DNA of 33,592 bases from an uncultured Eubacteriales bacterium (GTDB lineage: Bacteria; Bacillota; Clostridia; Christensenellales; Aristaeellaceae): the NCBI GenBank assembly GCA_902801765.1, contig CADCJO010000020.1:1-33592 (forward strand), written 5' to 3'. Below, piece after piece: positions 25,228-33,592 of this stretch. Positions within the stretch are counted from its first letter, which is position 1. Every line of letters starts with the position of its first letter. A program made the translations under genes and the position numbers. The notes beneath the pieces were generated by a model, which was given only the letters and a program-made list of their open reading frames with translations, was not told where the DNA came from and did no database searches.

Positions 25228-28200
25228 TTATTTTACGTTGAGCACCACGTCAGCATTGCCAATCCACTGGGTCAACAGGCTTTCCCGCGTATCGTCCCGC
25301 AGCGCGGTGAGCAGTTCCTGCCGCAGCTCCTCCTGCGCCGCCTGGATAACAGCGGAGCTTTCCGTGATTTCTTCGCTGTAATAAAGCACATGATATCCGT
25401 CGTCCATCCGGATGGGTTCGCCCACATCGCCCTGCTGATTCAAGGCAAGGGCCGCGGCGATCCATTCTTCTTCCGAAACCGCCGCGCCGCTGAACACAGC
25501 ATAGCCGCTGGCAGGCATGCTTTCATCCTGCCGGGCGAGGGCTGCGGCGTCCTCAAACGTGATTTGCCGATTTCGGATTTGCAGCGCCAGATCGGCTGCT
25601 TTGTCCTTGGCCCGCTGCTCGAAGGTTTGGAGCAGTTTACGGTCGCTGTTGAGCTGAGTAACCTGCTTGGCCAGGACCTTTCTTTCCTCCTCCAGATTCT
25701 CCAGCGCTTTTCCCGTGGCTTTTCGGCTGTCAATTTCCTCGTTGATTTTGTCCAGCTCTTTTTGGAACTGCTCCAGCTTGGGCAGGATCGTATCCAATTC
25801 GGACATATCCACGGGCACGATCAGCTGCTTGACGAAACGGCAGCCATCGGGCAGGATGGGGGAGGCGATTTGCCCGTCCTCCAGCATCCGGGCATACTGC
25901 GCCGGATCAGCGGTCAGCAAGGCGTCCTCCTCTGCCTGACGCTTTTGCAGAGCGGCGGAAAAATCCGTTTCACTTACTTCAACATGCTTCAGCGCTTCTT
26001 CCCACAGCTTTTCTTCCATATCCAAAGCATCCGGATCGATGTCAAGCGCCACCGCATGTTCACGCAGCACCTGGCGCCTGGTCATTTCCTCGGCGGTCAA
26101 TTGGTTCAGCTCTGCTTCCGAGGCCGCCGGATTCAGGGCGAAGATCTCCGCGTATACGGCTTTGAACGCCGCTTTATCAAAGGCGGTGCCGTTCACGATC
26201 AGCGCTGCGGTCTGATTATGATTCAGGTCAAGCGTATACAGCGCCTGACTGTCATTGATCTGTTTCGCGGTCTCATATGCCTGTGCTTCCTGGACTTTTG
26301 TGAGGTCGTAGACAATGGTCATAACCTCTTGACCGTCAATCACCACCGAAGCAGGCACGGGATACGTCGTTCCGCCGCCGAAGTCTTCTGGAATGCTTTC
26401 CCGGAAGGCGCGCAGAATCGGATTAGCCAGGTCAGTCAGTTCTTTTTCCTGTACGGGTTCTTCGGCGCTGCTTACCGCTTCCAGGCGTTTTTCCAGCGCT
26501 TCCGGCTTGGCGGACTGCACGTCCAGCTCCTCCTGCAAGCGGACGGATTTTTGCGTTTCTTCTTCCAGGCTGCTGCGCAGCGCGGCGGCTTCCTCAGTCA
26601 ACGCTTTGTTTTTCTGTTCCAGCGCGGCAATCCTGGAATTGGCTTCCTCGTTTGCTTTTTCCTGGGCGGAAGCCGCCGCGGCAAGCTGTTCACTGGCCAG
26701 GGCCAATTCATTCCGGCTTTCATTCAGCTGTGCGTTCAGCGCTTCCGTGGTTTCATCTGTCGTGTTTTTTGCCTGAGTCAGCTCTTTGTTCAGAACGGCG
26801 ATTTGCGCGTTCAGTTCCTCGGTTTTTTTCTCCGCGTCTGCCAGCTGTTCTGTCAGCGAAGCCACGGCGGCGGTCAGCTCTTCTTTTTCCTGACCGATGG
26901 CGGCGAGAGCTGTCCGGGCCTGATCCAGCTGTCCGCGCGTTTCGTTCAGGTCAGCTGTCTGCACCGCAAGCTTCTTCTCCTGATCCTCAGCGGACACTTT
27001 GGAATTATCCAGCTGAAATTTCATTGAAGCAACGGTCTTTTCCAGTTCTTCCTTTTCCTGAAGAGCAGCGTTCAGGGCACTTTGGTTCTGGGCGAGCTGT
27101 TCGTTCAGGGCGGCGACGGATTGACCCAGCGCTTCCTTTTCCTTGCTTATGCTGTCAAGCTGAGCCCTTGCCTCGTTCAATTGTTCATTCAGGGTGGCGG
27201 CCTTCGCCATGGATTGCTGCGCGTCGCTGATCATAGCGGCTTGCGCGGCAGCCAGCTGTTCGTTGAGGGCAGCGACCGCCTGATCCTGTTCTTCTTTTTC
27301 TTTCTGCGCGGCTTCCAGCTGCGTCTGGGCGTTGGTCAGCTTTTCGTTCAGAGAGGCGATTTGGGCCACGGACTGTTTCGCATCCTTGTCGGCTGCAGTT
27401 TTTGCGACGGTCAGCTGTCCGTTCAGGTCGATGATGGTCTGGGTCAGGTTTTCCACCTTTTGATTCGTAGCGGCAAGATCCTCCTGCGCCTTTTTCAATT
27501 GCTCGCTGAGGGCGGTTACTTGGGCCGCGGATGCCTCGGCGTCTTTAATCGCGATGGTTTTCGCAGCCTCCAGTTCTTCCTGAAGCGCTTTGATCTGTGC
27601 GCTCAGCGTCTGCTCTTTCTTCGCTGCGTCAGCCTGCGCGGCGGCGGCCTGTTCTTTCAACGCGGTGACGCTTTGGTTCAGTGTTTCGTTTTCCTGCCGC
27701 AGGGCCTGTAAATCCGCCTGTGCCTTTGTCAAAGCGTCCGAAACCGATTTGTACTCCGCCGTGGATTGGATGCTCGCCGCTTCATAATCAGATTGCAGCT
27801 TTGCGAACTGCGCATTCAGTTCTTCAACCTGCTTCTTCTGTTCTGTCAGCTCGGCGTCGGCGGCTTCATATTGTGACTGCCAGCCCTGCGTTTCCTTTTC
27901 GGCCTGTTCTTTTTTTTCCGTCAGGGCTGCTACCTGGGTCTGCAGCGTGTCGCGTTCGCTTGCGGTTTGATCCAGTGCCTGCTGCATATTCCCGATCTGA
28001 AGCTGATAAGCCTCCGTTTGATTTTCCAGCTCTTTCGCTTTTTCGTCCGCCAGGGTTTTGCTTTGCTCCAGCGCATCGGATACGCTGTTCAGGTTTGCTT
28101 CCAGGTCTGCCATCGCCTGCTGGTTGCTTTTATTCATGTTGTAGCTTCTCACCAGCAGTATGCCGGTAATCACCACGATTAAGCTCAAGGCCGCGATCAA

Positions 28201-28230
28201 AGACCAAATAAGCTTGCTGCTGTTTTTCAT
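25228..28230 (-). CDS. Membrane-anchored giant coiled-coil protein with C-terminal parvulin-like (PrsA/SurA-type) region
   Basis: The protein has 1000 residues. One N-terminal helix (about 8-27) anchors it; residues about 31-590 are an almost unbroken coiled coil with repeated blocks such as VAALNEQLAAAQ and KEKEEL. The C-terminal ~400 residues resemble a secreted foldase: a chaperone-like helical part (VNGTAFDKAAFKAVYAEI, LREHAVALDIDPDALD) and a parvulin rotamase core. The core starts with CRFVKQLIVP (about 795-805) and ends with FEDAAALARQDESMP, GYAVFSG and EPIRMDDGYHVLYY (about 880-945). A second coiled coil of about 75 residues is inserted within the core, so activity may be altered. The ATG at 28228-28230 has AAAGGAG 9 bases upstream. 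It may act as an extracytoplasmic folding factor held away from the membrane. Confidence 0.83.
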   Translation of the reverse strand: MKNSSKLIWSLIAALSLIVVITGILLVRSYNMNKSNQQAMADLEANLNSVSDALEQSKTLADEKAKELENQTEAYQLQIGNMQQALDQTASERDTLQTQVAALTEKKEQAEKETQGWQSQYEAADAELTEQKKQVEELNAQFAKLQSDYEAASIQSTAEYKSVSDALTKAQADLQALRQENETLNQSVTALKEQAAAAQADAAKKEQTLSAQIKALQEELEAAKTIAIKDAEASAAQVTALSEQLKKAQEDLAATNQKVENLTQTIIDLNGQLTVAKTAADKDAKQSVAQIASLNEKLTNAQTQLEAAQKEKEEQDQAVAALNEQLAAAQAAMISDAQQSMAKAATLNEQLNEARAQLDSISKEKEALGQSVAALNEQLAQNQSALNAALQEKEELEKTVASMKFQLDNSKVSAEDQEKKLAVQTADLNETRGQLDQARTALAAIGQEKEELTAAVASLTEQLADAEKKTEELNAQIAVLNKELTQAKNTTDETTEALNAQLNESRNELALASEQLAAAASAQEKANEEANSRIAALEQKNKALTEEAAALRSSLEEETQKSVRLQEELDVQSAKPEALEKRLEAVSSAEEPVQEKELTDLANPILRAFRESIPEDFGGGTTYPVPASVVIDGQEVMTIVYDLTKVQEAQAYETAKQINDSQALYTLDLNHNQTAALIVNGTAFDKAAFKAVYAEIFALNPAASEAELNQLTAEEMTRRQVLREHAVALDIDPDALDMEEKLWEEALKHVEVSETDFSAALQKRQAEEDALLTADPAQYARMLEDGQIASPILPDGCRFVKQLIVPVDMSELDTILPKLEQFQKELDKINEEIDSRKATGKALENLEEERKVLAKQVTQLNSDRKLLQTFEQRAKDKAADLALQIRNRQITFEDAAALARQDESMPASGYAVFSGAAVSEEEWIAAALALNQQGDVGEPIRMDDGYHVLYYSEEITESSAVIQAAQEELRQELLTALRDDTRESLLTQWIGNADVVLNVK

Positions 28231-28294
28231 TCGCCATTTCTCCTTTATGCCTCGTCTATTCCATAACCGGACGATAAAAACTTGATATGATCCT

Positions 28295-28323
28295 ATTATA
28301 CATAATAAATGGAAATTACTCAA
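28295..28323 (-). promoter_or_regulatory. Sigma-A promoter of the coiled-coil/parvulin gene
   Basis: The minus strand carries TTGAGT (28318-28323), a 17-base spacer and a perfect TATAAT (28295-28300). Confidence 0.75.
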
Positions 28324-31971: not shown

Positions 31972-33099
31972 TTACTTATTGAAGACCCGCACCGGCAACA
32001 CCAGGAAGGTAAACGCGTTGCCTTCCAGAGGCAGGATCATGCAGGGTGACACGCTGGAATTGAAGCACATGCGTACCTGCTCGCCGTCGATGTTGTGGAT
32101 AATATCGGTCAGATACCGGGAGTTGAACGCGATGTTGAGCTCATTGCCCTGGAAGCCCACGTCGATTTCCTCATGCACGTCGCCGCGGTCGGCGTTGGCA
32201 GTCATTTCCATGGGCATTTCGGGCTTCAGATGCAGATAAATCAGGTTGTTTTTTCCCTCCCGCGCCATCAGGCTGCAACGGTCGATGGCGTCAGAGAACT
32301 GGACGCGGTTCACCAGCGCTTCCGTGCTCCAGTTTTCGGGCAGGATTTTGCGGTAGTCGATGAACTCGCCGGTCAGCAGGGTGCCGTACACCTTGACGGA
32401 ATTGAAGGAATACATAATGTGGGAGGAATTGAACGTGATCTGGCACTTTTCGTTGCTGTCCGGCAGCATCTTGCTCACTTCGCCCAGGGTCTTGCCCGGC
32501 GTCACAGCGGACAGATGATCCTTCTGCGCGCTCTGCGGAATCTCGTTTTCCGCCTCCAGACGCTGCAGCGCCAGCCGGAACCCGTCCAAGCCCACCAACA
32601 GCGTTTCCTTTTCGTACACTTCCATCAGGATACCCGTCAGAATTTTGCGGCTTTCATCCGATGAAACGGCGAACTGCACTTTGGACACCGCGTCGCGGAA
32701 TGTGTTGCACGGCAGCGCCGCGCAGTATTCCCCGGAAATATCGCGGATGTCGGGATAGTCCTCCGCCGACATGCACGCCATGGACGTGTTGCTGCCCCGG
32801 CTCTTGATCACCGCGCGCATTCTTTCATCCACCTTGATGTCCACTTCGCCGACCGGCTGCTTGCGCATCATCTCGGCAAACAGCTTGGCAGGCAGAAGCG
32901 CGCAGCCGTCCTCCTCCACCAGCGCACTGACCGTCGCCTTGATGGAGATTTCACCGTCCGTGCACGTCAGCACCAGTCCGTCTCCATTCGTTTCGATCAG
33001 CACACCGTCGTATACCGGCTTCACCGGCCGCGCGGAAATCGCGCGTGTCACCATGCCCAAGCCATAGTTCATTTCGTCGGTCTGAACCCGAAAATGCAT
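31972..33099 (-). CDS. dnaN: DNA polymerase III beta subunit (sliding clamp)
   Basis: This 375-residue protein is the ring-shaped clamp that holds the replicase on DNA. Three clamp repeats are visible in order; landmarks are the N-terminal GLGMVTRAISARP, CTDGEISIKATV, VQFAVSSDESRKILTGIL at the start of the second repeat, GTLLTGEFIDYRKILP, and the C-terminal AFTFLVLPVRV where a typical clamp ends in a MP(V/M)R-like motif. Length fits the family (366-380). The ATG at 33097-33099 has AAAGGGACGG upstream. It is next to the origin, as in most bacteria, but the usual recF and gyrB do not follow: the next gene is an NlpC/P60-like protein. dnaA is not inside the window. Confidence 0.97.
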   Translation of the reverse strand: MHFRVQTDEMNYGLGMVTRAISARPVKPVYDGVLIETNGDGLVLTCTDGEISIKATVSALVEEDGCALLPAKLFAEMMRKQPVGEVDIKVDERMRAVIKSRGSNTSMACMSAEDYPDIRDISGEYCAALPCNTFRDAVSKVQFAVSSDESRKILTGILMEVYEKETLLVGLDGFRLALQRLEAENEIPQSAQKDHLSAVTPGKTLGEVSKMLPDSNEKCQITFNSSHIMYSFNSVKVYGTLLTGEFIDYRKILPENWSTEALVNRVQFSDAIDRCSLMAREGKNNLIYLHLKPEMPMEMTANADRGDVHEEIDVGFQGNELNIAFNSRYLTDIIHNIDGEQVRMCFNSSVSPCMILPLEGNAFTFLVLPVRVFNK

Positions 33100-33196
33100 A
33101 TCGTCCGTCCCTTTCTGTTCTGTGATTTGCCTTGCCTCGGCGTTGTATCCTCTGTCGTACTTTCCCGCCATCCACGGACGCGCCGCCAATGACGGT

Positions 33197-33340
33197 GGTT
33201 GTAGTTATATATATTCTCAGTAGTAGTATTAGTCCCTACGGAAAAGTGGATAACTTTCCCGAATCCACGCAGCGCCATCATTCCCGCGTGCTTTCCAGTT
33301 GTGGAAACTGTCGGGATACATGTGGATACATGGTGGATCA
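33197..33340 (-). other. oriC: Replication origin (oriC) unwinding region with DnaA boxes
   Basis: Reading towards dnaN (minus strand) there is a cluster of same-direction DnaA-box-like 9-mers compared with TTATCCACA: 33332-33340 (7 of 9), 33321-33329 (8 of 9), 33300-33308 (7 of 9) and 33245-33253 (8 of 9). After the last box comes a GC-rich spacer (33233-33241), then DnaA-trio-like triplets (on the plus strand TAG, TAT, TAG, TAG, CAG over 33218-33232) and an AT-rich stretch (33205-33215). This is the same order as the B. subtilis unwinding module between dnaA and dnaN. Confidence 0.82.
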
Positions 33341-33418
33341 TCCTCTATTTTCGCACACTTCCAGTCAAAAATCAAGCTTTGCGGATTTTTATTTCAGCGG
33401 GTGAATCATTCAGTATTT

Positions 33419-33435: not shown

Positions 33436-33519
33436 CGTACTCTCCTGTTGGATAAATAGAATGTGAAATGGTAACTGTTCAGTCGGGTTCAATAAAGGGC
33501 ACTTTAATTCACAACGGGG

Positions 33520-33571
33520 CGAGGGCCTGTGCGGCCCTCGTGCACCTGCACCAGGAGATTTCATCTCCTGG
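33520..33571. repeat. Double-hairpin element with TGCACCTGCA linker
   Basis: The first hairpin has stem CGAGGGCC/GGCCCTCG (33520-33527, 33533-33540) and loop TGTGC. The linker TGCACCTGCA spans 33541-33550. The second hairpin has stem CCAGGAGAT/ATCTCCTGG (33551-33559, 33563-33571) and loop TTC. The tight arrangement of two strong stems looks like a REP-type intergenic element. Confidence 0.6.
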
Positions 33572-33592
33572 ACCTCAATAGCGGATATAGCT

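Follow-up and report, generated by a model that had tools for sequence, protein, structure and literature searches.

Organization of the region upstream of dnaN

The analyzed stretch of DNA (the window) was one entire contig (C20) of 33,592 bases from a MAG of 2.4 Mb that consisted of 93 contigs and was 81% complete. The right end of the window carried the dnaN gene encoding the 375-aa beta clamp of DNA polymerase III (31972-33099, minus strand, ATG at 33099). The gene was transcribed leftwards, and the contig stopped 493 bp upstream of it. Its identity was established by the TIGR00663 profile (271 bits versus a cut-off of 137.65) and by three Pfam clamp domains. Further to the left, the minus strand at 25228-28323 encoded a 1031-aa coiled-coil-like protein with a PPIC-type rotamase domain at its C-terminus.

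The 147 bases at 33194-33340 contained, in the direction of dnaN, four DnaA-box-like words, a spacer, five DnaA-trios, an AT run, and a degenerate second array, all on the minus strand. Words with up to two mismatches to TTATCCACA were counted as boxes, and the word search returned TGATCCACC (33332-33340, two mismatches), GTATCCACA (33321-33329, one mismatch), GTTTCCACA (33300-33308, two mismatches), and TTATCCACT (33245-33253, one mismatch), the last being the putative platform for the trios. The 12-nt spacer (33233-33244), delimited by the module search and by alignment, covered the greater part of a degenerate DnaA box close to the trios, TTTTCCGTA (33237-33245), that was recognized by alignment with relatives. 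The module search placed the five trios CTA-ATA-CTA-CTA-CTG at 33218-33232, corresponding to CAG-TAG-TAG-TAT-TAG on the plus strand (3'-GAT type). Reading the sequence directly, we found the 11-nt AT run AATATATATAA at 33205-33215, the likely site of strand opening, as well as four overlapping TnnT motifs in the first array on the strand complementary to the trios, at least two being required for a DnaD Recognition Element (DRE). Pattern matching and alignment revealed a second array with a period of three, CTACAACCACC, at 33194-33204, which the initial annotation had overlooked.

The module was searched for by rules taken from the available text of PMC8287927, namely a DnaA box with up to two mismatches, a spacer of 0-16 nt, and at least three trios; the scoring was our own. 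By these rules for a basal unwinding system (BUS), the window had a box with one mismatch located 12 nt from five NAN trios of the correct polarity. The combined score of box, spacer, and trios was 11, with 4 for the next best site within the window and 7 for the best site in 40 windows simulated with an order-1 Markov model. The order of box, spacer, trios, and AT run towards dnaN that had been read in the initial annotation was recovered with every element in its place. A tandem second box beside the trios, which is common and not obligatory, was degenerate in the window (TTTTCCGTA) but present in relatives, for example as TTTTCCACA in a 98% relative (L002). DnaA boxes by themselves were unremarkable: nine words with at most one mismatch occurred in the window, two of them inside the module, and further two-mismatch words lay outside it at 33447-33455 and 33505-33513. 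The sole perfect TTATCCACA of the window was located within dnaN (32094-32102), and the module had no perfect box. A 10-bp tandem word noticed earlier, GGATACATG(T/G), was indeed present, but one of its copies was altered in L002. We rejected it as an iteron because it was not conserved in L002 or L003.

Next to the boxes, at 33346-33376 of the minus strand, we noted by eye a promoter-like element, CTTGATT...GAAAATA. A similar element was seen by eye in the upstream sequences of many relatives and in part of the alignment, and the one in the window is perhaps the dnaN promoter.

Conservation and uniqueness of the module

For comparison, we collected 23 dnaN loci from MAGs of the same genus, which together with the window made a set of 24 sequences. 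The first trio array and the AT run were present in all 24. In the alignment of 16 of these sequences, 17 of the 27 invariant columns fell in the box, the trios, and the AT run and four in the second array, while the DNA between the second array and dnaN had none. The diagnostic middle T of the DnaA-trio was retained in 109 of the 115 triplets of the first array (23 sequences), and the trios were conserved in the genus.

A loose form of the module, TCCAC-N(0-20)-NTANTACTACT, was found solely upstream of dnaN in the 81% complete MAG and in four other genomes of the same genus (G019, G007, G024, and G001). The pattern had no match in G141, G180, and G077, which belong to other genera and have more degenerate trios. 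Since the backward control of the pattern also had four matches in the MAG, the number of matches was not significant, and it was their position that served as evidence. No second site of this pattern was found elsewhere in the 81% complete assembly. The view of the locus as a B. subtilis-type unwinding module was thus borne out by its conservation across the genus and by the position of its only pattern match in the MAG.

Separation of dnaA from dnaN

A profile search of the 81% complete MAG did not find the C-terminal domain of DnaA, and the dnaA gene of G019 with its flanks had no match in the MAG either (a search run without a positive control). Among the 28 other genomes of the genus, 26 had dnaA and 24 had dnaN, at least in part. 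In all 22 genomes with both genes, dnaA and dnaN were located on separate contigs (one of these dnaN genes being a fragment). Since the contigs were short, the DNA upstream of dnaN in 23 relatives was searched by tblastn with a DnaA of the same genus. It had no match, while 6 of 6 control loci were matched. The searched DNA extended from 527 to 4,000 bp upstream of dnaN, with at least 3 kb in 19 of the 23 loci and 3,087 bp in L002. Judged by eye, several kinds of open frames preceded dnaN in the 19 loci inspected, and a few of them were common to close relatives.

These observations bear on an alternative, an ordinary Firmicutes origin of the oriC1-dnaA-oriC2-dnaN type that was broken by the assembly with dnaA just past the contig end. 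Such an arrangement would agree with the adjacency of dnaA and dnaN in many order-level relatives and in one clade of the family, as well as with the absence of the MAG's own dnaA from the assembly. The 22 genomes with separate contigs and the 23 relatives (including L002) with no DnaA in the searched DNA upstream of dnaN speak against it. Moreover, the contig ended in repetitive DNA. A repeat search with aligned copies identified positions 33494-33592 of the plus strand as the start of a dispersed hairpin-rich repeat, which was present at no fewer than 40 places of the MAG including the window (40 of 178 candidates were scored). The repeat (copies L058-L081 and the window's) measured about 350 bp or more when complete, and many of its places in the MAG were at contig ends. 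A search of the window against Rfam gave no match. We therefore regard a broken ordinary origin as very unlikely, and the initial expectation of dnaA just beyond 33592 was not supported. Because dnaA was absent from the MAG, we inferred its position in the window's species from the relatives, whose gene order this species probably shares. In the DNA searched, dnaA lay between the two box clusters in none of the 23 same-genus relatives, and presumably does not in the window's species.

At the family level, 124 of the 150 sampled genomes had both genes. They were adjacent in 36 genomes, including G104, which had two such pairs, and G157, which carried an additional dnaN. Five genomes had them on the same contig 38 kb to 1.3 Mb apart, and 81 had them on different contigs, which is not proof of distance, G086, G113, and G144 being contig-edge cases. 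The other two genomes (G118 and G163) each had two dnaA and two dnaN genes, with one pair adjacent and one separate, representing either contamination or two real sets. The distance between dnaA and dnaN was 1.21 Mb in G141 and 1.28 Mb in G180 (both of genus g51, their contigs measuring 3.26 and 3.41 Mb) and 38-47 kb in three g50 genomes, with 47 kb in G077. Both linkage states occurred within g42, g43, and g55.

In a phylogeny of dnaN built from 50 rows, to which each genus contributed one to four, the linked rows of the family formed one clade (support 98/96), and the linkage label required two changes. Forcing the unlinked rows into one clade was not rejected (AU p 0.255). Thus, a single separation of dnaA from dnaN was possible, though not demonstrated. 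A common new neighborhood of dnaA was considered as a mark of one move and rejected, since no neighbor was shared by more than 4 of 20 loci from 19 genera, the neighbor families having been built from the longest open frames, some of them antisense. Small groups did share neighbors. One open-frame family was located upstream of the moved dnaA in L244, L247, L251, and L253 (genera g34, g36, g40, and g1), and others occurred in two or three loci. The new place of dnaA may be old within the g34/g36/g40/g1 subgroup. In L244 and L255, dnaA had a ParA/Soj-like gene (named by eye) next to it or in its vicinity, as if the two had stayed together in some genera.

The moved dnaA was often accompanied by boxes of its own. 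In 8 of 21 loci (L238, L241, L244, L247, L248, L251, L254, and L256), two forward DnaA boxes with a spacing of 13-15 bp were located about 95-135 bp upstream of the estimated start, suggesting that autoregulation may have moved along with the gene. The DnaA of a relative had its N-terminal, ATPase, and C-terminal domains all present.

GC skew and probable position of the origin

The GC skew switched at dnaN in two near-complete family relatives, G180 and G141. In G180, the 10 kb preceding 2,590 kb had a skew of -0.053 and the 10 kb that followed had +0.071, with dnaN at 2,590.8 kb. In G141, the skew was -0.084 before and +0.083 from 1,670 kb, with dnaN at 1,671.1 kb, and two pieces just beyond dnaN were negative again (-0.022 and -0.053). 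Along G180, twenty 20-kb samples had a negative skew at 1.02-2.55 Mb, except at 2.21 Mb, and a positive one from 2.65 Mb through the end of the contig and on to 0.85 Mb. Along G141, the skew was negative at 0.17-1.70 Mb, with a zero value at 1.02 Mb, and positive from 1.87 Mb through the end of the contig and on to the first 20 kb, except at 2.89 Mb. Finer sampling placed the switch no more than about 10 kb away from dnaN in each of these near-complete relatives. In G077, three samples gave -0.064 and +0.048 flanking dnaN. Eight contigs of the window's genus, three of them sampled partly, had a weak skew that was higher on the dnaN side in six and changed sign in four. Pooling these contigs gave -0.012 for the upstream side and +0.013 for the side with dnaN. 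The cumulative skew, examined in three of the contigs, reached its minimum at a distance of 9-20 kb from dnaN.

As estimated from the skew, dnaA of G141 and G180 was located roughly three quarters of the way from the origin to the terminus. At this position, dnaA would be copied late in these two relatives.

The skew also helped to weigh a reading of the locus as a regulatory region of dnaN, in which the boxes would control dnaN transcription, the module would be a relic, and the origin would be elsewhere, for example at dnaA. The promoter-like element beside the boxes agrees with such a role, as do the upstream boxes of the relocated dnaA in many genera. However, the skew switched at dnaN and not at dnaA in G141 and G180, most invariant columns belonged to the box, the trios, and the AT run, and the module pattern had no second site in the MAG. 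A purely regulatory role is thus very improbable. We conclude that the interval very likely represents the inner, unwinding half of the chromosomal oriC of an uncultured rumen-type Clostridia species, in whose lineage the origin stayed by dnaN and dnaA left. The earlier proposal that this was the functional origin was strengthened by the conservation in the genus, the unique pattern, and the skew switch at dnaN in two family relatives (with a third in agreement), and a functional origin is most likely.

The outer box cluster

A second, outer cluster of boxes was found further from dnaN. In 18 of the 24 genus sequences, two to four inverted boxes were located 189-644 bp upstream of dnaN, mostly at 330-520 bp. 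Of the six sequences without outer boxes in this usual range, three (L002, L008, and L022) were long enough, and these had inverted boxes at 715-914 bp. The DNA around these boxes was alignable with the outer cluster of the remaining sequences, less readily so in L008. In L002, L008, L021, and L022, GC-rich hairpin repeats were seen by eye closer to dnaN than the outer boxes. Repeats thus appear to have entered oriC in these loci, where they separate the outer boxes from the inner module, so that the distance between the two clusters is not fixed.

The repeat at the end of the window probably also separates the outer box cluster of oriC from the inner one. Since the repeats of the relatives were nearer to dnaN and the window ended in a repeat, its outer cluster is probably past 33592. 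In that case, by analogy, the origin would be bipartite like that of Clostridioides difficile but without dnaA in the middle. We also considered the outer cluster as a former dnaA promoter and rejected this idea, since the relocated dnaA often had its own upstream boxes.

The second array beyond the AT run

The usual genus form of the second array was CTACTACNACN. After sequences without the first array (a match of at least 8/12) or without the AT run had been dropped (0 of 24 in the genus, 3 of 25 unlinked and 3 of 22 linked in the family, and 8 of 20 in the order), the second array was matched at 8 or more of 9 positions in 20 of 24 genus, 5 of 22 unlinked family, 2 of 19 linked family, and 0 of 12 order sequences. 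The reverse complement of the array was never found (0 of 24 in the genus). The copy in the window matched at 7 of 9 positions, and an equally good match arose in 4% of shuffles. At least two TnnT motifs were present in 19 of 23 second arrays, and the window had one.

One explanation is a simple extension of the DnaA-trios, with a single DnaA filament crossing the AT run. The two arrays agreed in strand and polarity, CTA predominated in the first two triplets of the second array, and the distance from the first trio to the second array was 25-30 nt (start to start) in 23 of 24 sequences, L023 being without the array. On the other hand, the triplet phase between the two arrays was random (8, 8, and 7 sequences), and the trio-diagnostic middle base persisted in 109 of 115 first-array triplets versus 58 of 92 second-array triplets. 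Triplet 3 of the second array ended in A in 23 of 23 sequences. The sequences compared are related, and the search expression had set or restricted some other positions of triplets 1-3. The second array did not look like a plain continuation of the trios because its middle base was less well kept. An extension of the DnaA-trios, which would be compatible with our main explanation of the locus, is therefore possible but not the expected outcome.

A more elaborate and rather doubtful scenario combines two novelties. The origin would have been uncoupled from dnaA, which would be copied late in the two near-complete relatives, and would have acquired a new CNA array with a period of three. This array might be read by a partner other than DnaA, such as a DnaD-type helicase loader, and mark the far edge of the bubble.

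Proposed mechanism of origin opening

Given this anatomy, ATP-bound DnaA would bind the box at 33245-33253, aided by the weaker boxes at 33300-33340. Since dnaA has left the origin in this lineage, DnaA would act from elsewhere in the chromosome. The DnaA oligomer would then extend onto the five trios of the plus strand and stretch this strand, after which the AT run at 33205-33215 would open. A DnaD-type protein could engage the exposed minus strand and bring the helicase for both forks. DnaD-like proteins (PF07261) had matches in 40 of the 41 genomes scanned, including the MAG. Near a DnaD-like protein, contig C34 of the MAG encoded a weak match to Bac_DnaA, which we take for a probable loader of the DnaC/DnaI type.

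Significance of a probable origin away from dnaA

Firmicutes origins have been described in a conserved rnpA-rpmH-dnaA-dnaN context (PMC7561715, available text), and origins are predicted from where the dnaA-dnaN operon is located (PMC7198777, available text). In the available text of the literature on separated dnaA and dnaN, on second trio arrays, and on this family, we found no earlier report of the separation of dnaA from the oriC-dnaN unit in this family. Prediction based on dnaA would misplace the origin in this family, by more than 1 Mb in two relatives. The clade is also a natural experiment on whether the control of initiation tolerates a late-copied initiator gene, and the second array gives a direct test of the far side of the opened region.

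Comparison with known systems

At its core, the locus adds one more example to a known type of module. The BUS of B. subtilis has an AT run and is located upstream of dnaN. Within incC, it comprises boxes 6 and 7, a GC-rich spacer, and DnaA-trios (PMC8287927, PMC10201434). The B. subtilis module resembled ours in the order and polarity of its elements, the spacer length, the trio sequence, the AT run, and the site upstream of dnaN. In contrast to B. subtilis, the genus had no dnaA as a neighbor and possessed a differently constrained second array after the AT run.

The oriC of C. difficile is bipartite (oriC1-dnaA-oriC2), with an inner cluster that has a trio and an AT-rich unwinding site before dnaN (PMC7561715, available text). 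Our sequences shared with it the two box clusters, the inner one having trios and an AT-rich unwinding site before dnaN. They differed in that the relatives had no dnaA between the clusters and their outer boxes were mostly 330-520 bp, or 715-914 bp, upstream of dnaN. Synechococcus elongatus belongs to a different phylum and is set alongside by position, since it shares an oriC beside dnaN at the shift point of the GC skew. The separation of dnaA from the oriC-dnaN unit in cyanobacteria (PMC7198777, available text) is a parallel to the situation described here.

DnaD of B. subtilis requires paired TnnT motifs, the DRE (PMC10201434, available text). Repeated TnnT motifs were likewise found opposite the trios in our sequences, and the lineage has DnaD-like proteins, making them candidate binding sites. 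Unlike the DRE, the second array was located beyond the AT run, and in the window it had a single TnnT. Finally, the extended trio (eTrio) of Thermotoga maritima consists of TAG repeats beside AT-rich stimulatory DNA (PMC10316083, available text). As described there, AT-rich sequences flank one TAG array in T. maritima, whereas here two arrays flanked one AT run.
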